Assembly (NCBI GenBank): GCA_037178675.1
Contig: JAYMGJ010000288.1
Coordinates: 1 to 64,000 of the forward strand
DNA length: 64,000 bases
Source of the DNA: Scleroderma bovista
Taxonomy: Eukaryota > Basidiomycota > Agaricomycetes > Boletales > Sclerodermataceae
Direction: 5' to 3'
Position 1 is the first letter of the stretch. Every line of letters begins with the position of its first letter. Of the stretch, positions 1 through 22,110 are shown in pieces. Position numbers and translations under genes: made by a program. Below the pieces are notes generated by a model that worked only from the letters and a program-made list of their open reading frames with translations, did not search any database and was not told where the DNA came from.

Positions 1-470
1 ATTCAAAGGACCTGGCACCAAGTCAAATACGGCATGGTCTGGGTCAATGTATAGCTGGCAGACATGCGCCGTGGCAGCTTTGTCGACCATAATCTATTGT
101 CTCATCAGAAAATGACCGCATTTGTGAGTTCCAACTAACCTTCAATTGTAATGCACCATAGTCTTGGGGAGTGTCAAAAATTAGTTTGGCTATGCCATGG
201 GGCAGAACCTCCATGCAACATTAGTCCACATAATGCACCTACTTTTTCACGTGTAACATGGTCAGACGAGGGTGAAAATCGGCCGTGTGTCACGGGCCAG
301 CGGAGGACAAGCCCAGCATTAACTATTATCATGTAACACGGGTGGGCTACACACACCAATATTGTCACCATGTGATTTCGGTGGGCTATGATGGTGTTTA
401 AGGAGGTGTGATGGATGGGGATATAGTTGTTGTCACCATGTCATATGGGCCAGCCAGGATTTTACTCCAA
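1..470. repeat. Degenerate GTGGGCT-type repeats at window edge
   Basis: No gene is supported here. From about 240 the sequence contains scattered copies of a GGTGGGCT core and its variants (GGGCCAGC, GGACCAGC). These are the same kind that make up the longer array at 1985-3010, so this is probably the outer part of the same repeat-rich flank of the KDZ element. The two short reading frames on opposite strands at 151-371 overlap each other and look like chance. Confidence 0.45.
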
Positions 471-1760
471 TGCACATTAATGGACCAGCCCAGGATTACT
501 GTAATGCAAAGGTAATGGGTTGGCTGGCAAAGACAAGTACCAATACATCTAGTAAGGGGTGATCCAACCAACCCTGCCAGGGCGTGTTCTACCGTGGATG
601 GGTTGAAGCAGGGGGATCTACTGTGGGTTTACAGGGGTGATCCAACCACCCTGCCAGGGCTTGTTCTACCATGGATGGATTGAAGCAGGGGGTCCTACCA
701 CGGGCTGTCCTACCGCGGGTTGACAGGGGTGATCCAACCACCCTGCCAGGGCCTATTCTACTGCGGATGGATTGAAGCAGGTAGACCTACCACGGGCTGT
801 CCTACCGCGGGTTGGCTCACTCCCTCCGGTCAACTAGTTTGACTACCATGGCTTTGACAACATCCAATGAACATTAATAGATTGACTGGAATGCAAAGGT
901 AATGGGTTGGCTAGAAAAGACCAGTACCAGTATGTCTAGGAAGGGGTGATCCACCCAACCCTGTCAAAGGTTGACCTACCATGGATCACAGAGGGTGACA
1001 AACCATGGGTTGACTTATCAGGAGTTGACTTACCGCAGGTTTACCTCCTGCGGGTTTCCTTACCATGGGTTGACTCAATACCTCTGTAAACCAGGTCGAC
1101 TCCACTCCATGGCTTTCACTACCCATGTACATTAATAGATTCACTGAAATGCAAAGGTAATTGGTTGGCCATAGAAGACACTACCAGTACATCTAGTAAG
1201 TGGTGATCCAACCAACTCTGCCAAGGGCTGTCCTACCACGGATGGATTACAGGGGTTGACCTTACCACCTACCGCGGGTTCACTTACCGCGGGTCGGCTT
1301 GATACTTTCAGTCAACCCAGTCTCCATGGCTTTCACTACCAATGTACATTAATAGATTCACTAGGTAATTGGTTGGCTAGAGAAGACAAGTAACAGTACA
1401 TATAGTAAGGGGTGATCCAACCAAACCTGTCAAGGGCTATCCTACTGGGTGGACAGGGGGTGACATACCGTGGTTAACATACCGCAGGTTAACTTACTAG
1501 GTTGAGGCCACCAGGTTGACCACCATGACTTCACTACCAATGCGCATTAATTGATTTACCGGAATGCAAAGGTAATGTGTGGGCTAGCAGTACTGGCTCT
1601 ACTACCACGGATGGATTACAGCCAGTTGGATATTTACCGAGTGATCTACTGTGGGAGAAGTACCAGTACATACAATAAGGGGTGATTCAACCACTCTGTC
1701 AGCAGCACTGGCTTCACTACCACGGGTTTACTGCCTCCTGTTGGTTGACCACCAACCACT
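471..1760. repeat. Tandem repeat array built on CCGCGG-like boxes
   Basis: A unit beginning CATTAATAGATT and continuing through ATGCAAAGGTAATGGGTTGG and a GGGGTGATCCAACC block recurs with starts near 471, 871, 1128, 1345 and 1543, so the period shrinks from about 400 to 200 bp. Between these blocks lie near-15-bp boxes with consensus TACCGCGGGTTGACT. Four boxes keep an intact CCGCGG (713, 805, 1272, 1287). The rest read CCGTGG, CCACGG, CCATGG, CTGCGG or CCGCAG, mostly single or double CpG transitions of the same palindrome. No coding region was seen. The array looks like a subterminal repeat block of the element carrying the KDZ genes. Confidence 0.75.
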
Positions 1761-1984
1761 ATGGATTCCAACAGAGATGGAAAACCTACTTGGCCTTTAC
1801 TCTCAGTAGTTGACAAGAAATTCCTTTATCAATGCCACCACAGGAAGACTGTGGGCAACCGAAAGTGGTTGACCATCAGGCATTTGGCTATCTCAATTGA
1901 TCACAACAAAATACTACCACAAGTTTATCACCACTAGTTGGCTATTCAGTTCCAGAACTATGGATTACCCGTGGGTGGAATAAA

Positions 1985-3010
1985 GGCAGGCTTAGTGGGC
2001 CCATGTTCCATAGTAGCACACAAATATGTGTGCCAATGAGCTCCACGTGAGCGCATATATTATTCCATCATCCTTCTTATAAGGGGATGGTGATATTACA
2101 CCACCCCATGTAAAATGGATGGGCAGTTATTATATGGACCCATAGATACGGGTCAGCCAGATTACTACTTACTGTGAGCCTTGTATACAATGACACCGAG
2201 TAGTACAAGTGAGCTGATAGTGGCTTGTTCCAATGGGATACAGGTGAGCCCATGTATCATTTAATCATCCCATATAACACAGGTGGGCTGTGTATATAAT
2301 GTCCCTATGCTATAGGTCAGCCCACATACCACTGTCCCCTACAGTTTTGGCAGGCACATATTCTTTGCTGTCATGTAGCACGAGTGGGCTGTGATATGCA
2401 TGTACACATGGTGTATGATAGGGCTGTTATTATATGGTCCTGTGTGACACGGGTCAGCCGAGGGAATGCTGTCCCCTGACAAACAGGTGAGCCCCCATAC
2501 ATTGACACAGGTAGCACGAGTGGGCTGAGAATTCATTGTTTCAATTGGATACAGGTGAGCCCATTCAAAATTTAATCATCCCATATGACACCAATGGGCT
2601 GTATATTTATTGTCCACTATGATATAGGTGGGCCCAAATAACACTGGCCCTTGTTGTGTGAGTGGGCCCATATTCATTGATGTTGTGTAGAATTGGTGGG
2701 CTGGGGCAAGCATGGTCATATGGTGTATAGAAAGGGCTGTTTTTCTATGGTCCCGTGTGTATCGGGTCAGCCGAAATAATTGTGTCCCCTAACAAACAGG
2801 TGAGCCCGCATACATTAACACGGAGTAGTACCAGTGGGCTGAGAACTGATTGTTGCAATGGGATACGAGTAAGCCCAAATGTAATTCCACAATCCCGTGT
2901 GTCATGGGTAGGCTACAAATATACTGTCCCCTACCATATAAGAGGGCCTATAGTTTGCAGCTTCAAGTATAATAGGTGGGCTGATATTAAATTTACTGTC
3001 TAATATGGAT
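1985..3010. repeat. About 310-bp tandem repeat, roughly three copies
   Basis: The phrase GAGTAGTACaAGTGgGCTGA and its surroundings recur near 2191, 2500 and 2817, giving a period of 309-317 bp. Inside each unit are alternating GTGGGCTG and GTGAGCCCA cores about 60-75 bp apart, some in opposite orientation. Copies 2 and 3 align over nearly their whole length (2395-2580 against 2700-2890), with many CpG-type differences. No reading frame is conserved between copies, so this is non-coding. The stretch 1761-1984 between the two arrays holds nothing recognisable. Confidence 0.7.
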
Positions 3011-3332
3011 GAGCCCATATCTTGCAATCCCAGGAATGAGGGGTGGGCTGGAATCCGGTTTAGGACAAAGCCGCGGCAGGGTAATGGTGCCTAAGCTATG
3101 GCACAATGATTTATCTATAAAGGCCCCAGGGACGCTATTGATGTACCAAAATATACAGGTGGGTAAGTTAATGAATGCTCAGGAGATGTTCCCTAAAAGC
3201 AGCTGCGGCAGAATGGCTCACTTCCAGACAGCCAGAGCACAGGATAAGTCACTAAGTAAGTCGCGACCATATTTTAAGATTTTTTAGTAAATTTTCTATG
3301 ACAATCATATTTCTACAAGTACCTCCATGTAT

Positions 3333-4594
3333 TTACACTACAGTAGCCCTCAACAAATGCTCCACACCATTGATCCTCATCCAGTCGGCACACCGTGGAA
3401 CATGTGCCCACTGATGGATATTATCCCTCATATAGTAAGTCAAACAATACCGGTTTCCTTCAACAGCATTGACCCCATGCCGGAGGAGCCTCCCGGAGAA
3501 TGCAACCACGGTACCTGGCTTATAGACTAGCTCGATGCCGAGGGTGGGGATGGCCATTACACAATCAGTGTATTCCCCAACATTGACAATGATGTCGTAC
3601 CAGCTGGCACGTGACTGGGGGTCACGGTGAAGTGGGGTCGACCGATTGGCGATAAGGGAAATATTGGTGAATGCAGTAGGCCAGAGGGATAGGGCACGGT
3701 TCATTACCGGGTCATACATAGAAGACCAATCCTCCAATGTACTCATTTCTCGCATACCGTCCTCATAGAGCTGTGGATGCATAATCGACAACACACCCGA
3801 TACGATGGCAGAAGGATATATCATATCTTGCAGCCACTGAAATCCCGCGGGTGTGTTAAGGTCCACTGATATAGAGGCATTTTCATGCTGAATATGGGAT
3901 GATGAGTAGGTCCATCCGATAATAGATATATACCCACATAATGACCCATCTGGTGCCTTGCAGGAGATAACTCCAGACACCCGGTCACTTGCCTATCTTC
4001 CCTATTAAAATACCATGGTTCTGATCGCCAGGTCCGCCCAGTTATACTGCTGGCCAGTTGTGTATGAAGCGGACTTAAAGCATGCAGAATATTTGCCTGC
4101 ATTTATTAATGAACATGGTCAAAAATAGGCAGTATTGGGGCATACCTGTGTTGGGCGTGCCAGGGCACCAGGGAGATACCAGAGTGCTACGGTCCCACCC
4201 TCCCCCAAAATAATAGAGGGTTCATCCAGGACACCAGAGAGAGTTGGAGCGAACTTGGAAAGAAAGGACTGCTCCCTATCCACATTGGTACCAGGCTCCA
4301 TTGCTGCCAATGACTCCGCCAGTCTCAAGAGGTCCACACCAGACTCAACTAGAAACACATAAGTACCTTGCCAAATAGATATTGGAAATACATACCTCGA
4401 TTTTGATATGCAGTGACCAAAGTGGCCACCATTTGATGCATCCCAACCGAAAGGTCAACAGGGAGATCAAGAGGAATGGGAGGTACCGCGGGGAGTGAGT
4501 CCCGGAATGCCAAAGAACAAAAGCACTGTCACATGTATCCAGCAACACGTTGAGAGAGCGTATAGTTGGTCGGATATGACACAGGACTAGCCAT
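3333..4594 (-). CDS. TET/JBP-family 2-oxoglutarate/Fe(II) dioxygenase
   Basis: Predicted nuclear enzyme that would oxidise the methyl group of 5-methylcytosine (or thymine) in DNA, using Fe(II), 2-oxoglutarate and oxygen. The exon model is 4594-4396, 4348-4146, 4096-3989 and 3956-3333, 377 residues. The C-terminal exon carries the double-stranded beta-helix signature: HRD (280-282) for two iron ligands, the distal iron ligand in LRHGV (His330), and Arg339 in GNRYCLTYYMRDN for 2-oxoglutarate. This wording is typical of basidiomycete TET/JBP paralogues, which are known to be linked to KDZ transposons. Oddities: codon 22 is TGA (4531-4529) where CGA is likely, and the third intron would be only 32 nt, so that junction may instead be a one-base frameshift. 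The catalytic part is undamaged; a start at Met46 or so would bypass the stop. It shares a divergent promoter with the gene at 5044. Confidence 0.8.
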
Positions 4595-5043
4595 GGAGGG
4601 GATTGAATTGAGGGGAAAAGAAAGGAAGATATGCCAGAATGTGTATTGACCTATCCCGGGATCCCATGCTGCGGCAATCAGGATATGGCAGGAATCGGTC
4701 ACCAATTACCGAAATCAGTCACCAATTGAAAATAAATAACAATAACAATAACTGCCAAATATCCCTACCAATTCCAAAAATGGAATTTAGCCATGCCAGG
4801 GAACAACCTATATGCTGACCGTGGGTAGCCACTGCCGAACTGATATATCTCATTCAAATTGGAACACAAATGATAAACCAATCAGATTTGAATGGAAGCA
4901 ATGTGGCAGTAATTTTGTGTCCGCGGAAATAACTAACTTTTAATTGTACCGTGATCATTGTTTGAGGAACAATGGTCCGGTGGCATGTGGGAATACGAGA
5001 GATTCTATTATAAATATTGACCTTTGATCCTGATCCTGCATCG
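4595..5043. promoter_or_regulatory. Divergent promoter region, TET/JBP and 231-aa gene
   Basis: A 449-bp gap lies between the two start codons on opposite strands. It contains one CCGCGG (4921), a direct repeat with the core GTCACCAATT near 4698 and 4717, and a TATAAATA-like stretch near 5010 just ahead of the plus-strand start. Promoter function is inferred from position only. Confidence 0.4.
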
Positions 5044-5837
5044 ATGGATTCTGAAGCAATTGTTGCGCGCAGGCTGTCCCTGACATTGCAATATATCGGC
5101 ATCCGATTCAGGCGGTTCGTGTATTCTTTGCAGCAAAGCAGTGACCATGCCATTCTGGAGAAGATCAACTGGTATGGACATGTTCACGCAGAAGTGGTGT
5201 GTTCTTCCATATTGAAACTTTGAATATGACCATATCCCCCATGTAGGCACTTTTGGAGTGGCTACTTGCTGCGTGCAACAGAAAGGGGCTAGTGATGCAA
5301 GTCCCCGCGGTCGCAGCACATGTGATGGATTGGGTATCTGTGGTGGATCCGGATGCAGAAGCTTTGATGGAACAAATCAAAGAAATAAATGTATTCAAGG
5401 TGTATCATCGGGAGGCTAGAGTCTGCAGCACACACAGTACACCACGGGAGTGGTGGGTGTGGGGGAATAGTGGAGATATACCACGGACAACCTTCACCCA
5501 GCTGGTCACAGAGGCGGAGAAATTCTTTGCTGAATACCAGGTAAGGTTACATTCATGTGCGATGATAAGCTAATAAAATTGTCAATAGCCTGGGGACTTT
5601 GCAATCCCAGCTTTATTTGATGTCCCAGAAACCCCCCACATTGGCCTGAAGGATCTCCGACTACAAACTGAGCAAATGTTGGAAGAAACTGATGAGAAGA
5701 TCTTTCATCAAAACATGGTGTTGCAACATCTGGTTGACCGCATGGCTATGGTGGAATATTTGACCGATGCAGGGGATGAACTGGAGGACAAATGGGCGGC
5801 ATCCGCGGATAGATTATGGAGAGGCACAAATGAGTAG
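5044..5837 (+). CDS. Unknown 231-aa protein of the KDZ element
   Basis: Three exons (5044-5196, 5247-5540, 5589-5837) join in phase 0 with good GT..AG ends and give 231 residues with no internal stop. I do not recognise the family. The N-terminal half is mixed helical (a Leu/Ile-rich stretch from residue 8 to 30, then a block starting ALLEWLL at 52). The last 70 residues are acidic and heptad-like, with repeated Glu/Asp and Met/Leu spacing, suggesting a helical or coiled-coil tail. The ATG at 5044 was chosen because it is the first in the frame. It is head to head with the TET/JBP gene and tail to tail with the transposase (150 bp between stops). CCGCGG occurs in exons 2 and 3. Confidence 0.6.
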
Positions 5838-5986
5838 TGTGGCCATCCCAATAGTGACACATGACAATTATGATTTTTTCCTGTCCACATTGAATGATAG
5901 TTGAATTATCTGACTGATGTTCCCCATAATAATGAACATCACAAATTATGACTCAATGACACAAATAATATGCAGCAGTCACGGGA

Positions 5987-8900
5987 CTACTGACAAAGTC
6001 TACCCAATTTGTTATACATGTCATATTGCCTTGCTGCATAACATGCCAAGCCGCGGTCACCACATAATGAAGCCTTGGAGGCATTTTCCTCCCAGCGATT
6101 TGCCCGGGTCCTGAAGAAGGTATGTGTCCAACCCTGTTCTGCAGTTATCAACTCCACTTCCTCAGTCCATCTGTCTCGCTTTGCCTTTGCCCGCAGCCAG
6201 TGGACACGGTAAACTGGTCCGAATCATTATTCTGAAGGGTATATGATGGTGCATGGAAAGGCTTACATTCTGACATCCAATCATTTTTATCAGTGTCTTT
6301 GGGTATATCCATAGTCCAAAACCATGCCAAAGAGTCATGGCGATGTCCCCTTGCATTGGGATCTGAGACCGCGGTGCTGACTGTGAGATCCTTTTTGGAA
6401 AGTACTTTATAGCGGTCCAGGATCCTCGGCTCGGCCTCTAAGGCGATCATTTGCTTTCTGCAACGGTGGTAGACCGCGGCATATCTTTTTACCATTGCAT
6501 CCAGGTCAGCTACCTTTTTCCATGCGCAGGTGGTCCCCACATAGTTCCTCCCATGTCTGACCTCTGTCCGAAACAACACCGCCTTATCTGCTAGACCAAG
6601 TCGTATTTCATGTAAAGTGTCATTGGCCTGACCTTGTCTGAGCTGAAGTTCTTGCTCCACCAGGCCAATCAGCCCTAGCTCATGGCAGCGCGGCACACCT
6701 ATATAGGACGGAAGTGGTAGTACGGCGTGCTCAGCACGCCCTGGAGCCAGAGTAATGAATGTATCATCTTCATCACTATCAGTATCTGCTCCGTGAATCC
6801 CATCAAGTGTACTGTCCCAGTCTGGGCCCAGAAATGTTGCCGCGGTCTGCACCAAACTATTGATCTGGGATTGTAGCCTGTCATGTCGGCGTGAAAGGTC
6901 AAGCCTTTGGGATTCAGTAGCCCTTGCATCAATCTTTCGTGCATCCAATGAGAGGACTACCTGTGCCTCTTCCACTCTCAGGGCTCTGGCCATCCACATG
7001 GCAGATCCCCGCAGTGAACCCGCAGTTGGCATTTCTATGAGCTTCATCTCCACGGATTTAATGCTTGGGGCTTACCCCACAAAATCAAAATTGTTATCTA
7101 TCTTCCACTGTGAGGCTTACCTTTTTCCAATTGGACTTCAAATATATCCATTGCCTTCGGATTTGTCAACCTTTCAAGAAGTGCCTTTGTCTCCTGGTCC
7201 TTCCAAATTTGACGGAGGTGCTGGGGAACTGTTGCGTCCAAATTTGCAAAGGAATCACTAGATGATGTGAGATTTCGTCTTGCAATTGTCAGTTTCCTCT
7301 TCAAAGACAAAGCTGGAAATTGTGAATACCACTCCAATATTGCACACTTGAGGACCACTCACGCATGCGGACCATCTTTAAGAAGTTACTATCGTTCATT
7401 TGGAAGTCAAGCATTTCTTGCCGATGAGGGGCAGCCATTCCTCGTGTAGAAGGGGAAACAATATTTAAGGAAGCCCACAGAGTTTCCATTATTTCCCCGT
7501 CCACATTGCCAACACCAGGAATGAAATTCGGGGAATACCTCACAAAACATTCACTTTGGTGTCCATGGACATGCCAAATTCCAATTCCAGGTTGGATCCT
7601 TAACGCTGGTGGAAGAGATATGAACCGATTGCCTTCTATCCGCCTTTGCAGATTTTTGCTGTATTGACAATTGATGTCATAGAAATTTACCACCTGCTGT
7701 TCCTGGCCCATTCCATGGCGCACTGCGTGCACCAGGGCATAGTCCATGTTGATTTGCCTAGTCACCAGTCAATGTCAATTTGTCATGGTATACCGCGGAC
7801 ATACTGCTCTCCCTTTTGAAAATCCACCATGGCATGGGGAATAAAGCAGCCATGTCTTGCACAGGCACACCCACCAATTCCGGTTGAAGCCAACTGACTT
7901 CTATTTGAATTAGCCTGGTTGACTGCCCGGTGATTGCTGCAGTCCGATTTCTGACCACGGCATTGACAGCCACCGCGGGTTGGTAAATGACCATGGCTCA
8001 AGGGATGGATAGCTTACCTCTATTCGATTCGCACTCCCTGCTAAATATGTTCTATAAGCCCCTGATGTTACCATGAATCCCTTCCCATCCATCAACCAGA
8101 CCTCATTAGGAGCTGATTTGAGCAACATATGCTCGGCTTTGAAATTTCCATCCATCGCAATTATGCGAGCATATTTCCAGCTACCATTATCAGTAGGATT
8201 TGTCAAGGGTACAAGATCATAACTCACTGCGCTAGATCCACCTCTCCCGCGGGTGGAATATTGACCCCCGGTTGAGGACATGCCGGGCAAAAGAGGACCA
8301 GCTCCCCTGGCCCAGGGTCTGACGACCCTGCATGAAATCCCTGCCACTTGAGAAGTTTCAGAAGTCTCCATGCCCTGGACACTCTCAGAAGCTCCTTGTA
8401 CCTATTCTGTCATGGCTACATCAGTACCGCAGTAATGAATGGGCTACTTTACTCACCGGCACAGAATGCGGGAATGCATTGGATGTCACTCTCTGCAGCT
8501 TACTATAGTAGTTCATCGCGGTCGTTCCACATTCCACATTATCCCGAATAAAATCATCCAGCACTTGGAAGCTAAATGCGGACCTGGGACTCTTGGTTGT
8601 TGCAGGGAAAAGGCCAGCCATCATGAGCTGTAGATGTGAATCCTCGGAACCACTGCAGCTGCAGTACCGAATATCACAAAAGTGCACTCCATTTGTGTGC
8701 ACCAAGGTTAGACAACCTCTGTCCCGTGGTCTAGTCAGATGAGGCGGTCGCCCATCATCCTCCATATCTTCCCAAGCCTCTTCATCGTCGCTTGCAATAT
8801 TCCCACGGCTATATCCCCCTCTGGGACAAGGTTTTCCACCGTGGCCCAAGTGCATCACAAAACCAATCTACTCTATTAATTATCATGTAGATATGGTGAA

Positions 8901-9490
8901 AGAAATGACACACCAGGCGAAGAGAGAAGTCCTCAAAGAAGGTTCCAGTCCATCTCTGAATCCGATGGAAGGGACTCTGCTGGTGTGCATCCAAGCAACA
9001 GTTACTGCAGAACATTGGTCTATGAGCACACTCTGTGCACCTAAATGTCGCATCCTTTCCACAGCACATGCAGATTTTTGATTCCATGGGTGACTCCATT
9101 TCCAGCAGCACGGACAAATATCTGGCCTTGAAGGGCAGCCAGTCTTGGAGATAGTGATCCTATGGTCGGATGAAATAAACTCTGAAATTAAAGGGGGGTG
9201 GGGATCAATCTGACCTGGTTCCTTGGCAATCTACATGCTCGCAGAGGTGGGTCATCTATGGCAGCATATGCCTCTACAGGTTCATCAGGAAAGAAATTGG
9301 TGTGCTCTAATGCAGATGAACCAGCCCGAGTTGGGGATTGATTGTCATCAGCTCTTTCAATGCGTGCCTTCTTTCGGGGTGGAGCCTTGACTATCTTGTC
9401 CTTGGATCGTCTACCTGATCTTACTGTCTTCCATGTCACCTGCATTACAGGTGTAGATGGTCCAGCTTTAACTACCTTGGACTTCCCCAT
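5987..9490 (-). CDS. KDZ (CxC2-type) transposase, intact
   Basis: DDE-type transposase of the Kyakuja-Dileera-Zisupton superfamily, expected to cut and move this element. Ten exons: 9490-9215, 9159-8914, 8867-8457, 8406-8228, 8180-8018, 7950-7805, 7757-7363, 7312-7121, 7070-6267, 6213-5987. All nine introns are 46-67 nt with consistent phase, giving 1012 residues without a stop. The basic N-terminus is followed by the CxC2 cysteine cluster (about 122-160, ending FHRIQRW), then the KDZ core: MDGNF (Asp381), a CxRHG segment, FYDINCQY (Asp501), HGHQ (538-541) and DGEIMETLWASLN (560-572). These acidic residues are the likely catalytic set. The C-terminal third is the conserved helical region ending in the KDZ-typical WLRAKAK...DRW and a Tyr/Leu-rich tail. 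An upstream in-frame Met exists at 9508. No damage was found, so it may still be active. Confidence 0.93.
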
Positions 9491-9917
9491 GATGGTCTCT
9501 GGACGCAAAGCTCACAGAAAGGATTGCTTTTGACCTCAAAATGCCTCATTGCAATACCTTGAACTCGGACAACTTCAATGATTGCATTGGGATCCTCGGT
9601 TCCCAATCTAGTTCGGGACAATCTTCAGGTACAAATGAAACATTTCCAAATATGGAATGAGATCTTGAGATAGGCGAATAAGGGTCGGGAAAATGGACGC
9701 TGACGAAATGGACCTTTCCATGTATGGTATAACATTTGCAAATATTCCCAGAACCTTTCCAAATAGGCCTCGGGTGCCGTGTTATATTTGCACATAAATG
9801 GGAAGGGAGGATCAAGGGTCCCTGTGACATGGGAAGGAGGTGACCGCGGGAACTTTGTTCAACAACCCGGTATGCGCACCAGAACTTAGGAATTGCGGCA
9901 AGGGTTCCACCTCAGTC
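9491..9917. promoter_or_regulatory. Divergent promoter region, transposase and 14-exon gene
   Basis: A 427-bp intergenic gap between oppositely oriented starts. It contains one CCGCGG (9844) and a short repeated motif in both orientations (CATTTCCAAATATGGAATGA near 9640 and GGAACCTTTCC-like blocks near 9750). No clear TATA box was seen. Promoter role is inferred from position. Confidence 0.4.
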
Positions 9918-12900
9918 ATGTCTGATTCTGAATACAGCAGCAGCAACAGTGGTGGGCACTCCGATGGCTCAGGCCAAGGCAAGACCCCCCTCCGAAAAGA
10001 TGAGGTCGCAATTATCCAGGGGAAATTGGAACAGTGGATGGGCGCTGATGCGACAAAGAGGAAGTCTATTTTCAAGGACATTGCGCACACTGTTCAAGGG
10101 CTGGAGGCCAACAGGACCCTCAAGAGTAACCAATGGGTGGTCAAGAAGAAGGTGAGTGCTTCCCCCAATTTAGAGGTGTTACAATAATGTGTCTTCATAG
10201 GCAATTCAGACGTGGCTCTATAACCACAGTTGTACCCGGAAGAAAAAGCAACTTGTCAAGTATGGCCGGAGATGGAATACCCGCATGGTGGTAGCACACC
10301 AACACAAGGAGAAAATAGATTCTTTACTGACAAGAGCTGGGCATGCACCCGGATCCAAGGGGTATATTAAATTTTATCAACAGGCAGTGGGAAAGGTGAT
10401 CAAGAAAATGAGCCCAAAGCAGATCGAGCAAGCAGCTGGGACGGCGAAGGAATGGAACAACAGCCACCCCCCTGCAGAGATTCAAGCAAAGTGAGTATAT
10501 TATTCCATTCCCGAATTTCACTCAGGTGTGGGTAGAACCGCGGAAGCAAAAGGCTGGAAGTTTGCACGGGAGTTTTCAAAGGAAATGTGGAAGCAATGTG
10601 GTGCAAGAGTGGTGGTGATGGCGGCTTGGAAAGATGCTGCAGGGGATATTATGTATGGCCTGTAGGTGCGGTCATTGGGTGTGGATACTTTTACTAACAC
10701 CAGCAGGCACGACTTCAATGATGAAATAGGTGATGGAAAGATGTTTGAGGGGTGGGACAGGGTAGAGAGCAAATGGGAGCGATATGCCCATGAGGTGTTT
10801 GGGGTGCAGGAGGATGCTGGGGAACCTTCCGAGGACGAGGATGAAAACCAGGTGCCAAGAAGAAAGCCCAGCTGAGGTAAACGGCGCCCACGGATTAACC
10901 TCCCCTCCAATGAGGATGGGACACTGTCCATCCCTGTCATTCTCAATATGAATGCACAAGACAAGAAGGATGTCGTGCGGGCATTCATTGGTTTTTATTA
11001 TGGTAATGTAAATAAGATCTGGAAATTAAAGACTAATGGTGTCACACAGGAAAGGCTTGTGACCGCCAAGATGTCACTGTTCCCTGGGCTGCCATTGCAG
11101 AAGACCGCGGCATATATATCTCTGGCCGGTATTGGCCAACCAATGTAGCCTTCAGGGAACCCTCTAGGCTTACAAACCAGGAGGCCACTGCCATATTGGA
11201 GTGGTGGCGAGACAGGCAGGTGACTTATCCAACTGATACCTTCAGGTTCAAGAGATGGTTGGAGTCTGACGGGTCAGTCCAATCCGCGGTTAGCCAATCC
11301 CACCGCAGTTCTGCAAAGAGTGGTGTCAAAAGACACTGGAAAGGTATGGATAATGTTATTGAATAAGGAACTACTAAGGCATGATTAGAACCTTCACTGG
11401 ATGATGATGAGGAGGAGGAGGAGGAGGAGGAGGAGGAGGAGGAGGAGGAGGAGGAGGAGGAGGAGGAGGAGGAGGAGGAGGAGGAGGAGGAGGAGGAGGG
11501 ATGATGATGAGGAGGAGGATGATGATGAGGGTGATGAGGGTGATGAGGGTGATGAGGACGAGGACGAGGACGAGGATGACGATGAAGATGCATTGCCGCA
11601 GCAGGAAAGGCCCCGCGGCTCTGCAGCGGGACACTCTGGCCAAAAAGCGCCAGTCAAGGGTCGCAGGAAAGGTGAATATAATCATATTAAATATGCCACT
11701 ACTGAGCCATGGTCAGAACCTGCCATCAATGAAGATGACGACATGGAAGCGGATGAAGAGGGAATGCCGTGGCATACAGGGCCCGCGGGTCCCTCCAGGG
11801 CCGGAGGCCAGCCAAAGGACCTACACAGCGGCGCAAATATTCACAGTAAGGATTTACCTTCATGTGTCTTAATATTGTTGACATATGTTAGGAGGTGCTG
11901 AGCCACGACGCATGGGTGGTAAAGGACACTCAAAGGGAAAAGCTGGTGACAAAATTGCAGACAGTAAGTGGGAAGGCGTACTACCCTAGGAAGGTACTCT
12001 AACTAACATGCCAAGACTCCGCTTTGGATGAAAGGGACAATGGTTCCAGTCACAATATCAAGGTTGGCCCGCCCAACAAGGCATATTTTATTCCTGCTGG
12101 ATCCGATCAACATAAGGATGCTGAACCTGTGAAACAAAAAGGTGAGAAATACATTATATGACGGTGAAAATTGACAAACAATACCGGATGATATGGGTCA
12201 TGCACCCACAGATACGATGGTAAATCATCCTGTGGTCAGTGACAAACCAAAGCCGCGGGTGAAGACCAAAGGTTTGTCTAATGTTATGCGGTCACACATT
12301 TATTAATAGTTAAATCTTTTATATATCATTGAAGAGAAACAACCTGCAGCAATTGGTGAGACTAGTGCTACAATGCAGCAGGAAACGTTGGTGCCTTCCC
12401 TTCCTGCAGCAGAGGTCGGAGCAACTAGACCAGGGGCCAAGACAAAAGGTAAGAGTATTGTGTGCTGTTAAACCTTCAATGTGTTTCATATATTACATAA
12501 CTTCAGAGAAACATGGTGTGCTCCCAGGGAAAAGCACTGCTGCCCATAGGACAAAAAATGGAGCTGCATCGGTCACCGCGGCTAAGACGGCAACCGAAAT
12601 TAAAGGTACCAGTATTCTAATATATACACACATCTTATCATACTTCTAACATATGTTCAGAAAAAAAATCTACGTTAGGTAAAAGTATTCCCGCAGCTCA
12701 GCAGGCAATCACTGGTCCTTCCAAAACATCAATTGACCAGCCACAGGATAAGCGAGGTGCCAAGATGACAGGTAAGTTTGTCATTGTGTATCTTATATAT
12801 ATAATATATATTTACAACAAGAATTCCCAGACGCCAGAACAAGTACTCGCCGGGTGCAGTTTGAAACCGCGGGCCCTGCCACCGGTGACAAGGCACCTCC

Positions 12901-13072
12901 CGGACAATTTGCCACAGAGCCTGCAAATTCAGACAGCATCGTGCCAATGGTTCCTGAGCCACCTACCGCCATGGCTGCGCCTGCACAGCGGCAGTCCACC
13001 TGGCATAAGAGGCTTCCACCGCGGCTTGAGGACTACCTGGACGACCGCATTCCAAAGAGATCCCGAAAGTAG
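9918..13072 (+). CDS. KDZ-element accessory protein, 14 exons, damaged
   Basis: Exons: 9918-10151, 10201-10490, 10536-10652, 10707-11002, 11050-11343, 11389-11671, 11717-11845, 11892-11963, 12016-12141, 12212-12271, 12335-12448, 12507-12605, 12661-12771, 12831-13072; about 821 residues. The first five exons encode a globular region of a family common in mushroom genomes beside KDZ transposons (I recall blocks like KxAExKG..FxxxxWxQCGxRxVxxxxWKD and VPWxAIAxDR); its function is unknown. Exon 6 encodes a Glu/Asp run. Exons 7-13 are short, low in complexity, and all flanked by phase-1 introns; exon 14 ends in a basic tail. Two lesions: codon 270 is TGA (10873-10875) where the frame otherwise continues into Gly-Lys-Arg, and the GAG run has one base too many, at 11498-11500. 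A nuclear or chromatin role is only a guess from the charged regions. Confidence 0.65.
11409..11500. repeat. (GAG)n microsatellite coding poly-Glu
   Basis: About 30 uninterrupted GAG triplets, followed by GAT/GAG/GGT/GAC triplets to 11590. In the spliced frame of the accessory gene they encode an acidic tract. The run ends in GAGGGATGAT where GAGGATGAT would keep the frame, so one G is extra. This may be slippage or a sequencing error in the repeat. Long poly-Ser, poly-Leu and poly-Arg frames here are artefacts of the triplet. Confidence 0.9.
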
Positions 13073-13145
13073 TTACCATACATGCATGTAAATATATTAG
13101 TGAGAAAGTATTGTTTTCCGGTTCACTATATACACAGGAATGTAA

Positions 13146-14688
13146 TTACAACATGGTAGGATCCAAGTCCTCCATATCATACATGCCATTGTCTGAGTCG
13201 GATCCCTCACCTTTGTCCATGTGCACCAGTCTCTCCCTCATCTCTGCATACTGTGCCCAGCCATTGACAAGCCTTCTCCATTCTCGTGTCTCTTCTACCA
13301 ACCTATCCGCATATTGTTTGTACATCACGACCATCGGTTTGTCATAGAGGTCGTCCAGTTTGGTGACCCTTCTATCCTTTGGGTGAAATCTTGCAGCTAT
13401 TTCACGGGCTGTTGTTACTATTTCTTTGTAAGTATCAATACAATATTATCCAACGAGAACTCACATTCATGCCACGGCCCATTGAACCTACCGCCGTAGA
13501 TGTCCATGTTGGCCATACTGTAGACTAACTGCCACCATTTATCTATGGACCTGTGAGCTAACAGTATCAAATTCGAAGGCAAACTTACCCTCCGCAACCT
13601 TTGGACAGGTCACCTCATTCAGCTCGGTTTCCGGCGCCTTTCCTTTCTCCAGCACTCTATTGTGGGTGGTGGGACTGGTACCAATAACCCTTGGCCACTG
13701 GTCCTTGCGGGAAATTTGTTCCCTGTCAGTATCGCTATCAATAGTTGATGCAGGGTGTGGCGACATCGACATGGATGATTGAGTTAGCGGTGAGAGTGGT
13801 GTGGATAACCCGCGGAATATTTCTTGGGGTCTTTGGGGAGGGGGAGTCCATCCACCACTGTTGGTGGATGTGTCGGTATCCATGGAGACTTCTGATGGAC
13901 TTTTTTGTATGGATGAAGGTGTCGGTACCTCTTGTAATTTGTTGTGGGGCCCAGCATCGCAGGGATGTCTCCCTGTTGGTGGGAGTGCGGGAGGATCCCA
14001 ATCGGTAGTGGAGGATTGATCTTGTCGCAACAGTTGCTCTTGTTCATCCTTACGAAGCGCGACTTCCAAGGCCGGGAGAATATTTGGACTGGTGCTGTGC
14101 ACCGACATTGCAGCACCGGGGATCATACGCGGCCGGACGTGTGGTGGAGACCAACCCCTGCTGCTACTGGAACTTGCTGAAAAGATTTTATAAGGTGCAA
14201 TAAAGGCAACAAATAGAATACATACACAACCCACTCCGAGAAATCGTCATAGCCGCGGTCATGGACGGCAGATACTGTGTTGGAGACCCGCCTGTGCTCC
14301 TCTCACTAGCTGCAAACATGAAATGAATTATAAGAAATATAAAACAATAAATACATACCTGAATCCCTTTGAGACCTCACGGAAGGACTATTTGAAACTT
14401 TGGTGTCCACCAGCATTGTGGAATCCGTGGTTGCTGGAATCCACGGTGGAGACCATCCAGTGCTACTATTGCTCGCTGCGATGATTAGATTAGCAGTGCC
14501 TAATATCAAGAGAGATATACAAATGCGAGGTGCGTGTAGCATTTCTAATGGGAGGTATCCATCCTGGGCTACCGAATAAAGCTAATGAAAATAAGTTTGG
14601 GAGTTACTTTGAGGAGACTTGGATTCATAGACATACCTGAGTTGGCTGCGCCATCATCTATGAATCTCACATTCCTTTGCCCACTCAT
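13146..14688 (-). CDS. Unknown KDZ-element protein with repeated Ser-Pro-Trp exons
   Basis: Six exons (14688-14637, 14475-14359, 14309-14226, 14176-13589, 13542-13465, 13417-13146) give 396 residues with no stop. Every intron is phase 1. Exons 2, 3 and 4 start with related modules (A-S-x-S-S-T-G-W-S-P-P and variants), and a fourth copy (GGWTPPPQRP) lies inside exon 4, suggesting exon duplication. A further decayed module (GSPGWIPP) can be read inside the first intron near 14570. The middle is Ser/Thr/Pro-rich and probably disordered. The last 130 residues look folded: an aromatic WWQLVYSMANMDIYGG segment, then a charged helix with regular YADRLVEE..EWRRLV spacing, ending acidic. I do not recognise the family. 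It converges on the 14-exon gene (73 bp between stops) and diverges from the Zn2Cys6 gene. Confidence 0.6.
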
Positions 14689-15507
14689 GATGTAAATAGA
14701 GGAACGAGGTACGACGGAGTGCAAGGGTGGGATGGACAGGTCCGGAATAAATATATATTGTATGGACTAGCTTATATAAGACATTTCCACGGGCACAATG
14801 AGCCACATGATGTCATCGGTGGAATGCAGCCTGGAATGTATCTACAATGCGCCCATTATTCCATATTTAGGTTGTAATAGGGCATCATCCACGGTAATTG
14901 TGTATAATATCACGGGCAATATCCCAAATGTTATCCTCCAGGCAGATAGTGGTACATATTACATATAATGGTAGGTATTTGACTATTTGACTTGTCCATC
15001 ATGTGGTGGCCATGGCAGTCAAATTTTACTAATTACCTGTCAGCCGCGGCTTTACCCATGGAGTGGACTCTGGTTTGATTTGTCTAACTTCATATTTTGG
15101 GTGAGATTGTGGTATTACTGTCTGTACAATTTGCCATTTTTTCATGTAGTTTGAACAGTCTGAAGTATGTATTATTTTCCCGTAGTCAATGGAAGCAGAT
15201 GCAATGTAATGATCTTCATAAATTCATGATTGTCATGTGTTCTCTACCAGCATTATTCAATACGATATTTTGGAGGAGTAACATACAATTCTTACATACA
15301 TTTATTTCCAGACATGTGGCAGGCTTCTCCGACATTCTAGGTCATCGGCCATCATTTCCACATGGTGTGACATACATCTGTCAATCTGACACCGTGGCCG
15401 TAGTGGACCCTGGATGACGTAACCATAATAAATATTCAACCTTGCCGTGAGGATTCCACACCGCATCCTTGCTATCCACCTCCAATCACCCTTTGTCTCA
15501 TTCTGCT
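14689..15507. promoter_or_regulatory. Divergent promoter region, unknown and Zn2Cys6 genes
   Basis: An 819-bp gap between oppositely oriented starts, A+T-rich, with one CCGCGG (15044) near the middle. Short reading frames at 14677-14877 and 15097-15417 have no splice support and no recognisable composition. Regulatory role is inferred from position. Confidence 0.35.
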
Positions 15508-17385
15508 ATGTCTGCCCAGCCTTCGACTGCCCTACTCGCACCCACATCTGACCTGTCCGGTCTTTTTGACACTCCCATGACGCCTGCCGAAATTATCGCG
15601 GATGCCACGTCCGTCATCATCTCAACGGTCGCAACCATTAAGAAAACGAAGGATATGACGCTGTGGATGCAGGTTCAGCGGGATGTCTGGACTCAGTTGG
15701 TAAGTTATCATTTTATGCTAGTTTCATTTAGCTGATACCTGGCAGAACCGTGTTAGAGCAGTTGCAGGAGATGTACCCCGTGGTTTGAGCATTCCTCCCA
15801 TGCTCATGGCCCTTGACCGGTACCTGGAAGACCCAAACAATGGTATTACAGAGTGGCCGAGGTGGCCTGAACTTCTACAGTGCCCATTGGAGACCGTCGC
15901 TGACCATCCATGGTCACACCGCGGTCCGCCATGTCAGGACGGTGGAGCGGTTCCAGCAGCAATGGAAGACACCCAGATGGACGGAGAGGAGGAAGTGACA
16001 GAGGCTGTGGATAAGGGGAAGGGAAGGGAATATGAGGTGAGTAATGATGAGGTTAGCTCGTCACAGGCAGCAGGTGGTGAGGAAGTCAGAGGGAGTCGCC
16101 GCGGTCATGGGCGTGGGCAGACACGGGGACGTAGCCAGTCCCGTCGCCCTCGCAAACGCGTCAAGTCTGCTCCGATGGTTGACAGCGACGAGGAAGAGAA
16201 CCCCACTGGTCGTGGTTCCAACAAGACATTCGACCTTCAACACCCCCCACCCGACTTTCCGATCCTTCCAGCTGTGGACCGGTGCGACTACTGTGCCCGT
16301 CGCCAGCTGCCCTGTGCGAGGAAAGAAGATCGCGCATGCTTCCAATGCAACAAATCGAAGCATGGGTGCAGCCTGGCATCCAAACGGGGGAGGTCTCGGT
16401 CGCGGTCGCGTGCACCAACCAGGCAAGCCAGTCGCAGGGTGTCTCCTCCATTGAAGACAGTCCCACTGGCACCTACTCGCGTCAACCCTTCCCGTTCGAC
16501 TCGCAAGCGCAAAGCTCAGAGTCCCATTCCCACGGATGATACCCCACATCCCCGGTCTGCACCCCGCCCTCCTACACCTGGGCCATCAAGGGGCAGGCAT
16601 GAAAGTGAGTGATTATATTTCCTTTTTGTGTTCTTCTGAAAGTCTAAACAGAATTTGATGGAGTGGTTATAGTCTGACCGAAATGGCTGTCAAAATCCTG
16701 CGACCGCGGCACAAGTGCAGAATGGAGCGAGCATGTGACCACTGCGACAACGAGTGCCTGCAGCGAATGCTCGCAGTTGAAAGAGGATTTGGGCAATGTT
16801 AATCAAAGACTCAACGCCCAGGAGCTGGAAATGGACACCCTTCGTCAGCTGGTGGAAGATTTGCGATCAAGTACGCTCGCTGCCCCTCCAACGCCATTGC
16901 CCACCGCTGCTGTGCAAACATCCACACCTGTGGACGGTCCTGCATCCGATCCAGGTCCCATTTCACCTTCCTCGGTCCCTGCATCTGCTGGCCTCACCTT
17001 CCACACCACCGCCGATATGCCCGACGACCAGGTGCCAGGTCAGTCTCCATCTACAGCACCTGCGTTGCTGGAGGGCCAGGATTCCTCAGTTGCAGATCCC
17101 CATCCAATTGATGTGCCAACTGACCTGCTGGTGACTCTGTGGTCGCCCACCGGGGATGCACACTCACCGCGGTCGGTGGACTCCGGTGTTGATGAAGACT
17201 ATGCGCCACCCCCCCGCCCTCTTCCGACAAATGCCTCAGATGCCACAATGGTCGTGGATACTCCCGCTGTCCCCCCTCCCACCATTGTGGTCACATCACC
17301 AGATGTGTCGGCACCGGGTCCCACGGGTATTGTCGAAGGATCGGTAGGTGATGGGGTGGATACCCAAATGGATACAACTGCATGA
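15508..17385 (+). CDS. Zn2Cys6-cluster protein with basic region and coiled coil
   Basis: Three exons (15508-15699, 15746-16604, 16721-17385) give 571 residues without a stop. Residues 1-110 are a short helical domain. An acidic stretch (about 130-180) and a basic Arg/Ser segment (about 185-215) with nuclear-localisation character follow. Cysteines 244, 247, 254, 262, 265 and 272 have the spacing C-x2-C-x6-C-x7-C-x2-C-x6-C, that of the fungal Zn2Cys6 binuclear cluster, and are followed by an RSRSR-rich basic tail. Exon 3 opens with a heptad region (about residues 360-390) suited to dimerisation, as in Gal4-type factors; the rest is Pro/Ser/Thr-rich. Likely a DNA-binding protein of the element. 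The cluster sits mid-protein rather than at the N-terminus, so it may be a structural zinc site instead. The second intron (116 nt) is the least certain part. Confidence 0.65.
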
Positions 17386-19390
17386 TTTGTTACTTACATT
17401 TTTTGTATGTTTCCCTCTTGGACTATTCTTTTTGTACACCCAAACAATTTTTCTTTTTTCCCTTTATGCAAGTCTTCTACTTACTTGTGTCATTGGAGTA
17501 CTGGAATGTCATGCATGCATTCTTTGAATATATAATTTGTGTCTTTCAATAGTGATTTAATGTACCCGGTGTGATTAATTTAATTAATTCCATGTCAAAT
17601 GAGGCTAACCGCGGCTTTTGAACATTCAGCAGGCTAGGTATTTGAATATGAAACTCTTTGTGAACCCCTGTTCTTCACAGTGTAATTTATATTTTTGTAG
17701 ACCATGTCTCTATGTTTTTTCTATATTAATTAAACTAGTGTACACCCCATTTTTTGCGGGTACTACCATGATCTGAATAAACACTGATATGGTGATCGGA
17801 TAAGGTTGTATCTACCCACCGTCACCACGGTCTATTTTATGTAGTTCCTCAACTAGCATCCTACCAGCAGAACAGCAGTAGCTATATGCAATTGAATTGA
17901 CTGCGGTACCTGGCACTGCCCAACCCAATCTGACCAATCCATTGTCAGTTCCCACGCCATATTAAGTTATTGTATATTTATCTGTTGTTTTCATCTAGCA
18001 TAAGTTTCTACCCAATCATTTTGCAGCATAGCATGCTGTTTGTGGTATCCCTCTTCTCTTTGATTGGTACTGTTATCCTAGTAGATAGTGTATATAGTAT
18101 CATCCACTTGTTATCCACACCTCCATATAATCAGTTAATTTCCAGGAAGTACCTGCATTGTCTTTCTAAGGCCTCTGAAAACTAATTCACCACAGGTTCT
18201 AAGCCTTGAGGCAATCATGGCTTGGTTCATATTTAATGTGTCCTGATCTATATATTAATGTTTCTCTACACATTCTTACTATGCTATTTTGAACATAATG
18301 TATTCTTGTGTGGGTGTTTCAGTTGTGCCTGCTGAAATGACTGCAGGTTCAGTCACATACCGCGCAGCTCGTGTGTTCAGCAACATCCCACTGACTAATT
18401 ACCTTCAAAACCTTACACTTTGTTAATTTCACCATAATCTAATAAATTTCAATAAGTGTTAATGACTGCTGATTAGTATACTTCGCCGCCGCAGTACAAT
18501 TCTCCTGTGCTACCAGTAGGGAACATAATCACTAGTAATCATTGGCACCCATTCCCTGTATCTACCCACTGCACCCACGGTGATGAACTCATTCACACCC
18601 AGATTTCATTCTAGGCAAATTTACCTTTGGCACCGTACTACCTAGCACTTGTATGCTGGGTTACCTCTCTAGCAATATCATGTATCCACTGGTAATTTGT
18701 TCCCGCGGGTGATATACTAATATATCTAACAGGATACTGTATTTAATTGCTCTTGATGTGCGTCTTCACACCTGCTGTAGCATTCCATCATTCTTATTAG
18801 TATACTGCGGTATGTCACCCACAAGGTCCTGCTCTAGTTGTTATGCTACCTCATTTCCTTTCCTATCTCTTGTGGTGTACCAACCAAACAAACCGCGGAT
18901 ATGTAGCATCCGCGGATCCCATCCTATTTATTCCCCCCCCCCCCCTCATGGTGCTTTGTAGTATCACCAACAACAGTTTCCATCCCATTAAGTATTCCCT
19001 TTTTCCATTTACTACAAAAAGCCTGCGGGTGTTTCCTTTTCCGCAGTCCTGCATGCCTAGCGGTATGCCCTGCTTTGTGCTGATTCTATACAGCTTTGCT
19101 ATATGCTTTGATTACAATGCAATATGGGCCCATCAATTACCATGGATGATAGCAATGTCTGGGTCCAACCCACTGATATGGTGATAACACATTATGTACC
19201 CCCCATTAATATGCGGCACAATCTTTTCAGGGCTCATTAGTATGATTCCATGATAATATTTAATTTGATCTATATACCCTCCCCTTAATTGACACCCTAG
19301 CCCATCCTCACACATTGCAACAATATCCTAGTAGCTAGCCAACCTGTACAAACCGATAACAACTCATCCAGGGCCCTCTGTCCACTGGCC
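17386..19390. other. Gene-free right flank of the KDZ element
   Basis: No convincing exon on either strand: the reading frames present are short, lack conserved motifs and overlap. The block still contains CCGCGG at 17609, 18703, 18893 and 18910, and several one-step variants (CTGCGG near 17902 and 18804, CCACGG near 17824 and 18573). It is therefore probably the right subterminal part of the KDZ element. No terminal inverted repeat could be matched, because the left end is not in the window. Confidence 0.5.
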
Positions 19391-22110
19391 TGTCATACTC
19401 GGCCGATTTTCACCCTGGGGTGGCCGTGTAAGACAGCCTAAGTAGGTGCATGGGCTCATTAGTCAACTTGCTAGTAGGTTATGAAGAAACATACCTTATT
19501 ACGGTCACAACATTTCACAGTGTGATTGACATGATCATGATAGTGATCCAGCTTGCACTGGAGCCAAGGTATAAAAATCCATTGGAAAATCATGCTGGCA
19601 AGTTGACCTCATCAGTGTCTCGAAGGCATACAAGGTGTGGACTTACAGCTGCAAGATATTATTCATGTCATACCAACCACGCTGGACACCCTCTTCCAGT
19701 AGAGCTTCAAACCCAGGGGTGAATCGTTGGTGTAGCTGAGACCACATTATTTCAGGTTTGATGTTCTTCTTGGATCGCATCCATCGATGTTGCAGTGTCC
19801 CTGCTAGTGCCGGGTCATGCCATTGGCACAGCATCGTCTGAGCATTTGCAATACCAAAATTTTCAGTCCCAGGGTTGCTCTGGGACACGAGCAGAACAAC
19901 TGGGAATGTAACTTGTCAGTAGATATTAATGAGGGACAACATGTACTTACAGCCAAGTTGATCTACCATGTTGAGATAATAAGACAGAATAAGCTGTGAG
20001 TGATGGTTGGAATGCCAGACACGGATCCAAAGGATCCTCCCAGAAAATGGCTCTATGCCTGTATGGAGGGCGAGGCTGAACTGAAGCCACTTGTCATGCT
20101 GGTCGATGGCCCAGATATCATTGATGCCGGCTGCCCAAAAATGGCGGCGCTGGAGCCACCGTGCCTTGCGCTGGCGAATAAGATGTGGTTCATAAGTAGT
20201 AAAGTAGTCTCGTATGACACTTCTGTACATGCAAGGTTAGGCCATCCACATAGTCCTAGGCAAAAGCACGGGTACGGGTGTACCCGTGCGGGTCCTGGGT
20301 GTGGGTACCACACAGGTGCGGGTGTGGGTCAGCACTGGGGCACCTGCACCAAAACCCGCACCCATGGGCACGGGTACAGCCACCCGCGGAAGTTGATTAC
20401 ATAACATAGTACTGACGTCTCGCGCATCATAGTATTCAACTACATACTGTGCCAAGGTAAGCCCTCTCCTACTCTGATCACCTTGGCTACTAACCTTTTG
20501 ATGTCACTCCCCAGTCCTTCTCTGTCCACCTTCCGCTCGCCGTCGCTTGGTTTACGACGCACCCACGGCCACATGGATGACAGCAACGACCAGCATTGAC
20601 AGCGCAGCCACCACCACGACCACCACAATGATGCACCCGCGACCACGACGACCTGCACGACGACCAGTGTCACGGCCATCATGTCCCTCTGGATGACGAC
20701 AATGACGACGACGACAGCAGCGCATCCACGCCAGATCGACGACGACGACGACGGCAGCGTGTCCACACGAGCACGATGAAGATGACAATGTCGAGATGCT
20801 GATGGAAAATGCCATGGCGAGACGATGACGACAAGGACAGCAGCGCGTGCACGCCAGAATGACAACGACAATGACAAAAACCAGCATCAATGGCGCAGCC
20901 ACCACCATGACAAAGACGACGACGACGAGGCATGCATGGCAAATGCCACCATGACACGGCGACGACGACAATGGCGACGGCAGCAGTGCGTCCACGCCAG
21001 AATGATGAAGACGATCACGGTGAGTCGGCAACGTGTCCACGCCAGCACGAAGACATCGAGACGCCCACGGCAAGACAACAACAACAACGCCAGTGCGTGC
21101 ATGCCAGCGCCAGGACGACGGAGGTGACCACCCCTCCACCCAGCCTCGCAATGACAACGAGACGCCCATGGCAAATGCCAAGGGTGAGAGGACAACAATG
21201 ACGCCAGCGCGTGCACACCAGCGCCAGGACAATGGGGGCGACCACTCCTCCACCCAGCCTCGCGATGACGACGATCGGACGCCCGTGGCAAGGCGAGACA
21301 ATGACAATGACGCCAGCGCATGCACACCAGCGCCAGGACAACAGAGGCGACGATCCTTCCATCCAGCATGACCACACGATGACCATCACACGACGGCGAC
21401 AACCCTCCACCCAGCGCAATGACATTGACGATCGTCGACCTCCCCACCCCCCGTTCTAGCGCGATAACGTACTGTATCATGTTGTAGCTACAATTTATTT
21501 ACTTCAGTATATAGTATTACTACGCCCGAAGGTCCCACCCGCGCGGGTGTCTTTTCGGGTGGCAAAATCTGCAATCCGATAAGACACCCGGACCCATGGG
21601 TCCGGGTGTTCAATTAGCACGGATCCGGGTGCGGGTATGCAGGTGGACACCCGTGGGTACACCCGTGCCATTCCCTACATAGTCCTGACCAATCAATATG
21701 CGTACTGACCATGACACACACATATTCATCTCATGGAACAGAAGACTTATCATTTCACGAGCACCTGCATTCAGGTACACAGCTCGCAATTCTTGCATGG
21801 CATCTTGGATTGACTCTGGAGTATGCCCTTGCTGATGGGTTCAAATCAAGCCCATCTGCTTGTGTATCTTGATAAACTTTGTGAGGCTATAGAAAAGATG
21901 ATGGATCAGTTGTGATATATGCGACAATTTCATGAAGGCTAGTCACACATACCCAATACCATACTGATTTGTATCAATATGTTTATGAAGTTCTTCTACA
22001 ATTCGTTTGTCAGTAAATTGTGCCTTCCATAAGCACATGATGAGTGGTTTCATATCCTCCAGAGGTGCTAGGCAAACAGGGATTTGAGTCAACTAGCACA
22101 AGTGATCATG
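19390..22110 (-). pseudogene. Integrase-core transposase-like gene, decayed
   Basis: Minus-strand exons can be followed from about 22110 to 19390: an N-terminal helical part (LHKHIDTNQYGIG, then KFIKIHKQMGL), AGAREM and CVSWSVR near 21780-21700, then the integrase core (FWAAGINDIWAIDQHDKW near 20130, GTENFGIANA near 19860, LQHRWMR..KKNIKPEIMWSQL near 19790) and a WIFIPWLQ segment near 19590. These are landmarks of a DDE integrase-core family abundant in mushrooms. The acidic residue expected before PGTEN is Asn (SNPGTEN), explicable as GAC to AAC after a C. The 5' exons are missing, one junction gives TGA, and the reading fades below 19440. A hAT-like element (20257-21677) lies between the AGAREM exon and the catalytic exon, probably in an intron. 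Certainly non-functional. Confidence 0.7.
20257..21677. mobile_element. hAT-like non-autonomous element, copy 1 (1421 bp)
   Basis: The ends are TAGGCAAAAGCACGGGT on the left and, reversed, TAGGGAATGGCACGGGT on the right. An 8-bp target duplication CATAGTCC flanks it (20249-20256 and 21678-21685). Eight-bp duplications and TA-G-starting inverted ends are hAT-superfamily features. Subterminal DNA is rich in GGGTGCGGGT/GGTACCC blocks. The interior (20560-21450) is low-complexity GAC/CAC/AGCGCC-type repeats with no transposase. It is nearly identical to the copy at 38525-39953. Confidence 0.85.

Follow-up and report, generated by a model that had tools for sequence, protein, structure and literature searches.

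What keeps a six-base palindrome, CCGCGG, packed into a single transposon while it is sparse in the DNA alongside? The question arises in the first 64,000 nucleotides of contig JAYMGJ010000288.1 (assembly GCA_037178675.1) of the basidiomycete Scleroderma bovista, hereafter the window, which hold a complete KDZ transposon of about 19.2 kb at 226-19456. The answer that we favor, and to which we give an even chance, is that the CCGCGG words are selected binding sites of the element's own Zn2Cys6 (zinc-cluster) protein and serve element-wide self-recognition, likely for anti-silencing. Elements of the genome were grouped into families F1 to F6 by the identity of their zinc-cluster gene to that of the window's element, which belongs to F1; there are at least 135 matches genome-wide, and parts of elements were compared.

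Distribution of the CCGCGG sites

The window contains 42 copies of CCGCGG, of which 38 lie within 713-18915 and the rest at 20384, 38675, 48749 and 51411, while 100 shufflings of the window preserving dinucleotides gave a mean of 3.37 and a maximum of 8. The initial annotation had claimed about 38 palindromes confined to the KDZ element, 31 of them in 3.0-17.7 kb, and both figures were reproduced (31 in 3071-17609). It had also proposed a count of all hexamers in 1-19.2 kb against the rest; when this was performed with a dinucleotide background, CCGCGG headed the ranking in 1-19200 with 38 occurrences against 1.25 expected, and 4 were found in the 44.8 kb of 19201-64000. The density is thus 1.98/kb in the element and 0.09/kb in the remainder of the window, with observed/expected CpG ratios of 0.52 inside the element and 0.47 outside. 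In the whole genome of 51.8 Mb the word occurs 7,400 times (about 0.14/kb, or one per 7 kb), and the reversed control word GGCGCC occurs 7,239 times. Therefore, CCGCGG is ordinary genome-wide and very dense in the element. The site positions are as follows.

CCGCGG sites 1-19: 713, 805, 1272, 1287, 3071, 3845, 4486, 4921, 5305, 5803, 6051, 6369, 6474, 6840, 7793, 7973, 8247, 9844, 10538
CCGCGG sites 20-38: 11105, 11284, 11613, 11783, 12253, 12576, 12867, 13019, 13810, 14253, 15044, 15919, 16099, 16704, 17167, 17609, 18703, 18893, 18910

The spread is even, with counts of 4, 2, 4, 5, 2, 5, 5, 3, 4 and 4 in ten equal parts of the element. It had been stated that only the six bases are shared among the sites, which has to be corrected: the preceding base is A in 38-42% of cases and T in 10-14% (F1 in the window, F1 copy C173, and F2). 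When pairs of CGG triplets were counted in everted, inverted and direct orientation with gaps of 0-12, F1 showed an excess only for the everted pair with gap 0, and none was clear in F4-F6. Pairs of CCGCGG 60-90 bases apart occur at 242 places genome-wide, whereas the reversed word forms such pairs at 46. Of the first 50 CCGCGG pairs listed, 48 were assigned by eye to F1-F3 elements or to their surroundings up to about 21 kb away.

Conservation of the sites

Between the window and the F1 copy C343, 155 of 200 transitions fall at CpG, and an excess of CpG transitions is the signature of deaminated methylcytosine. In three comparisons of recent copies, the fraction of CpGs lost at the sites was similar to that at other CpGs: 0.37 and 0.27 for window-C343 (p=0.07), 0.41 and 0.27 for window-C212 (p=0.21), and 0.36 and 0.31 for C212-C343 (p=0.51). 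Methylation aimed at the sites, one of the roles initially suggested for them, is hence not borne out in the recent copies, and neither is methylation withheld from them.

The pair C343-C173, about 89% identical, gives a different picture, with a loss of 0.19 at the sites against 0.48 at other CpGs (p=5e-8), or about 2.5 times lower at the sites. The contrast between recent and diverged comparisons has p=0.0007, where one copy is common to both and neighboring CpGs are partly dependent. The difference is small when C173 is compared with the window, the more decayed copy (0.36 versus 0.47, p=0.046). Changes other than CpG transitions are also rare at the sites. Transversions number 5/200 at sites and 39/528 in flanks in the diverged half (p=0.014), and 1/234 and 28/615 in the other half (p=0.001); the outer, non-CpG bases of the sites changed in 2/67 versus 90/528 cases (p=0.001) and 1/78 versus 52/615 cases (p=0.02), respectively. 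Sites were taken if present in either copy, which somewhat lowers the change expected. As a further control, 36 of 73 hexamers composed only of G and C and containing CpG bear a transversion in the diverged half compared with 3 of 32 sites, although these control words overlap one another. One-step neighbors of CCGCGG in the window are in excess where they derive from it by a CpG transition (49 versus 12.5 expected) and not where they derive from it by a transversion (26 versus 25.1), so many former sites have been lost in the window copy.

The earlier statement that the sites occupy every codon phase holds, with 16 sites in phases 0, 1 and 2 as 3, 8 and 5. These lie in 15 open frames; omitting one overlapping frame leaves 15 sites in 14 frames (7,008 bases), for which 500 synonymous codon shuffles gave a mean of 2.3 sites and a maximum of 7. 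Amino-acid needs are therefore no explanation for the sites, and an amino-acid or codon cause was ruled out. The density is 2.2/kb in coding frames and 1.8/kb elsewhere. Tandem spread was also considered and could account for a few sites at most, four being located in subterminal repeats. Judged from sequence comparison, the sites look to be under selection: the initial proposal of a dispersed site maintained by selection agrees with the CpG retention in diverged copies, the rarity of transversions, the synonymous shuffling and the distribution among clades described below.

Sister elements and other KDZ loci

Identity of the zinc-cluster protein to the window's is 80-97% in F1 (full-length matches), 61-64% in F2, 56-60% in F3, 33-39% in F4, 35-41% in F5 and 35-37% in F6. 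The densities of CCGCGG per kb are as follows.

F1: window 1.98; C343 2.65; C212 1.80; C173 3.64
F2 and F3: F2 C86 2.74; F3 C2 1.00
F4-F6: F4 C78 0.32; F5 C560 0; F6 C324 0

Other KDZ copies have 0.08/kb over 27 distinct loci of 30, and among the matches listed only one of the 30 (C306) has a zinc-cluster match within 15 kb. The initial annotation had suggested testing whether the motif moves with the clade of the transposase; it is carried by F1-F3, and F4-F6 and the 27 other loci are without enrichment. In 3.4 kb aligned between F1 (C173) and F2, 6 sites are common while 3 and 2 are private. F1 and F3 share 2 sites, and at six of the eight sites found only in F1 the F3 sequence derives from CCGCGG by CpG transition. 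F1 sites in alignments to F4, F5 and F6 are present there in 0/6, 0/6 and 0/8 cases, but the three alignments coincide over most of one part of the transposase gene, so mostly the same few sites are tested each time. A separate observation concerns a KDZ clade at C74, C127 (115 kb), C252, C324 (16.7 kb) and C491, which has TET within 2.5 kb and no nearby zinc-cluster match among the matches listed. In a further clade, at C306 (27.9 kb) and C766, the Zn2Cys6 protein is 46-48% identical.

F4 and F5 likely have words of their own. In F4, CGGCA occurs 84 times versus 19.5 expected in C78, 59 versus 14.8 in C595 and 47 versus 13.5 in C270. In F5 the words are CCGG and ACCGG, with CCGG counted 64 times versus 19.5 in C560 and 44 versus 13.1 in C463. 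The agreement among copies of F4, or among those of F5, is not independent, since they are homologous. For F6 there is a hint of an own word, the weak ACTCCG (18 versus 2.8 expected). CGG or CCG is part of every one of these words.

The statistical support for the F4-F6 words is moderate and depends on the test used. In raw counts, the 4-mer and 5-mer z scores of F4 and F5 exceed those of four window controls. Binned scores (F4 4.7-6.7, F5 6.9-8.0, F6 4.5-6.5, F3 7.7) overlap the controls, which reach 6.7 and 8.3. When occurrences with look-alike flanks were merged, the scores were 7.5-9.7 for F4, 9.5-9.6 for F5, 7.7 for F6 and 7.4 for F3; nine groups of other KDZ loci did not exceed 5.3, while one window control, from coding repeats, reached 9.0 and is level with F4-F6. 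F1 and F2 score 14-25 in this test, against controls of at most 9.0. Flank-merged scoring left out L046, L048 and L052, and binned scoring took them in. L046 and L047 contain F4 elements only in part and L048 matches L043 at 99%, so that these three contribute little. Across the small divergences that could be compared, the F4 and F5 words are not conserved beyond the background.

The element and its zinc-cluster protein

The element starts with CCACAT and finishes with ATGGGCT, its inverted ends being imperfect. Its features are given below, with open frames taken from stop to stop.

226..19456: KDZ transposon (F1); copies elsewhere share sequence from 226, and a 7-bp duplication, CATTAGT, stands at both ends
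219..225: target-site duplication, left copy, CATTAGT
19457..19463: target-site duplication, right copy, CATTAGT
498..1700: subterminal degenerate repeats, with four CCGCGG sites (713-1292) in units such as CTACCGCGGGTT
3336..3992, minus strand: TET/JBP dioxygenase exon (PF12851, E 2e-19, domain at 3426-3863)
7304..7768, minus strand: KDZ transposase exon (PF18758, E 6e-32)
8424..8867, minus strand: CxC2 cysteine-cluster exon of the transposase gene (PF18803, E 3e-24)
9828..13072, plus strand: third gene, no family match (open frames, tblastn; 38-49% identity between F1 and F4-F6)
15451..17385, plus strand: Zn2Cys6 protein gene, candidate reader of the sites (frames 15451-15735, 15722-16612 and 16678-17385)
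16283..16369, plus strand: Zn2Cys6 cluster, C-x2-C-x6-C-x7-C-x2-C-x6-C

Both PF18758 and PF18803 are well above cut-off, which places the element in the KDZ superfamily, and the PF12851 gene inside it makes it a TET-bearing transposon. The genome carries at least 166 KDZ and at least 150 TET/JBP matches; since copies also differ mainly by CpG transitions, the genome is likely strongly methylated and KDZ-rich.

Fungal Zn2Cys6 clusters follow the spacing rule C-x2-C-x6-C-x5-12-C-x2-C-x6-8-C, with which the element's protein agrees, and its six cysteines are invariant in all seven aligned sequences. The predicted fold has two helix/loop repeats like those of Gal4, and all 14 structural matches listed for the model are zinc-cluster entries. 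The Pfam family PF00172 (cut-off 21 bits) gave 15.8 bits for F6, 14.0 for F5 and no match for F1, F2, F3 or F4. Classification of the protein therefore relied on the spacing of its cysteines and on its fold rather than on Pfam. The middle frame has a ratio of non-synonymous to synonymous substitution (dN/dS) of 0.18 against C173. F1-F3 have in common the loop that joins cysteines 2 and 3 (ARRQLP, ARRMLP, TCRMLP), which is different in F4-F6. Between F1 and F4-F6 the Zn2Cys6 protein is 31-36% identical, compared with 66-72% for CxC2 and 69-77% for the KDZ exon. A coiled coil is suggested in frame 16678-17385 by eye, with a sub-threshold match to CEP63 (E 0.02). Across species, 23 protein relatives were found, all from metagenome-type sources.

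Two other features of the window were observed. A long GAG/GGA trinucleotide tract lies within the third gene at 11399-11590, where alignments to other copies break. CGACGA/GACGAC-rich stretches with long minus-strand open frames occur at 20.6-21.5, 34.5-36.2, 38.9-39.7 and 47.7-48.6 kb, and all four seem to be copies of a single sequence coding for an acidic repeat.

Discussion

Zn2Cys6 proteins recognize CGG triplets. In the reading that we favor, a dimer of the element's protein would bind the two everted CGG triplets within CCGCGG, and the even spread of sites would allow it to recognize and coat the element's DNA at any place of insertion. Most likely, the bound protein would serve to keep copies open for expression and transposition, either by recruiting the element-encoded TET/JBP dioxygenase or through chromatin factors. 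The initial annotation had named a transposase or an accessory protein as possible reader; the likeliest reader is the element-encoded Zn2Cys6 protein, which was absent from the earlier gene list, rather than the transposase or TET directly. Since the sites cover the whole body, a role in marking the element is a better fit than the loading of transposase or the simple control of transcription. F4-F6 have diverged Zn2Cys6 proteins and probably use other CGG-containing words. A wider proposal, tentative and to our mind possible rather than probable, is a lock-and-key code: each KDZ clade with a Zn2Cys6 gene would have a CGG-based word of its own, scattered over coding and non-coding DNA alike, and a rapidly evolving reader of its own that marks only that clade's DNA for TET, word and reader changing together as clades split.

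Another reader is conceivable within the element. The sites could be read, for transposase loading or DNA compaction, by the CxC2 region of the transposase or by the product of the third gene at 9.8-13 kb, given that cysteine clusters can bind DNA, that both genes travel with the motif, and that the third gene diverges among clades (38-49% identity). We regard this as unlikely, since the KDZ and CxC2 exons are 66-77% identical though the clade words differ, the sites cover the whole body and not the ends alone, and CGG recognition is a Zn2Cys6 property. Plain transcription control with no anti-silencing role, exerted by a zinc-cluster activator of the host or of the element, would draw on the identity of CCGCGG with the core of the Pdr1/Pdr3 element; it is distinctly improbable, for the sites are as dense in coding DNA as elsewhere and cover the whole element, unlike promoter sites.

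In another reading, the enzymes of cytosine methylation, or TET, would have a direct sequence preference for the sites, as suggested by the two CpGs in each site, the predominance of CpG transitions between copies and the TET gene in the element. Nevertheless, site and other CpGs are lost similarly in recent copies and conservation extends to the outer, non-CpG bases (2/67 versus 90/528), making this very improbable. An origin by chance or composition, in which related copies inherited a bias in sequence or codon usage or the products of tandem duplication, is hardly credible: ordinary window segments do reach top-hexamer z scores of 9-13 and four sites lie within tandem repeats, but the flank-merged scores of F1 and F2 stand above all controls, and synonymous shuffling and the conservation of sites against CpG decay also argue against it.

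In the yeast Pdr1/Pdr3 element the core is preceded by T, a base that is avoided in the KDZ element. The two are alike in the CCGCGG core, which in the available text of PMC3091778 is the one recognized by Pdr1/Pdr3, in the everted CGG triplets and in the Zn2Cys6 fold class. They differ in that the yeast sites are located in host gene promoters.

A closer functional comparison is VANC of the Arabidopsis VANDAL transposons, which, according to the accessible parts of PMC5735166 and PMC10398659, binds short family-specific motifs and removes methylation. Both cases involve a DNA transposon with a dense, family-specific short motif, and related families with other motifs and diverged element-encoded proteins. 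VANC motifs are chiefly in non-coding tandem repeats, whereas here the sites are single, dispersed and located in coding DNA in all phases, the density in coding frames being equal to that elsewhere. Moreover, the candidate reader here is a Zn2Cys6 protein and the KDZ element also encodes TET. Binding and demethylation have been demonstrated for VANC, while the KDZ element is known here from sequence. By analogy, the element may work like VANC in outline, though it is built differently and is not a member of that system.

A 2014 paper is said to have been the first to link KDZ and TET/JBP. TET-bearing Kyakuja (KDZ) transposons of Agaricomycetes are described in the available text of PMC12730594 with CA..TG ends, no inverted repeats and a 7-bp target duplication. 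Our element shares the combination of KDZ transposase and TET/JBP and the 7-bp duplication, but differs in having CCACAT..ATGGGCT ends with an imperfect inverted repeat. That 2025 survey of TET-bearing fungal transposons suggests untargeted TET action, and its main text does not contain the words zinc, CCGCGG or subterminal. The words KDZ, Kyakuja and CCGG are likewise absent from the available text of the study of oxidized methylcytosine in Laccaria and Coprinopsis (PMC8889193). In titles and the beginnings of abstracts, a scope that leaves most subscription papers outside, no dispersed motif or zinc-cluster gene was found reported for KDZ elements.

Fungal TET/JBP genes ride transposons in large numbers, and a conserved dispersed site together with a candidate reader makes TET targeting directly testable. 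If the favored reading is true, this would be a case of sequence-specific transposon anti-silencing outside plants, made from different parts, and it would mean that selection has placed a binding site within protein-coding sequence in every codon phase.

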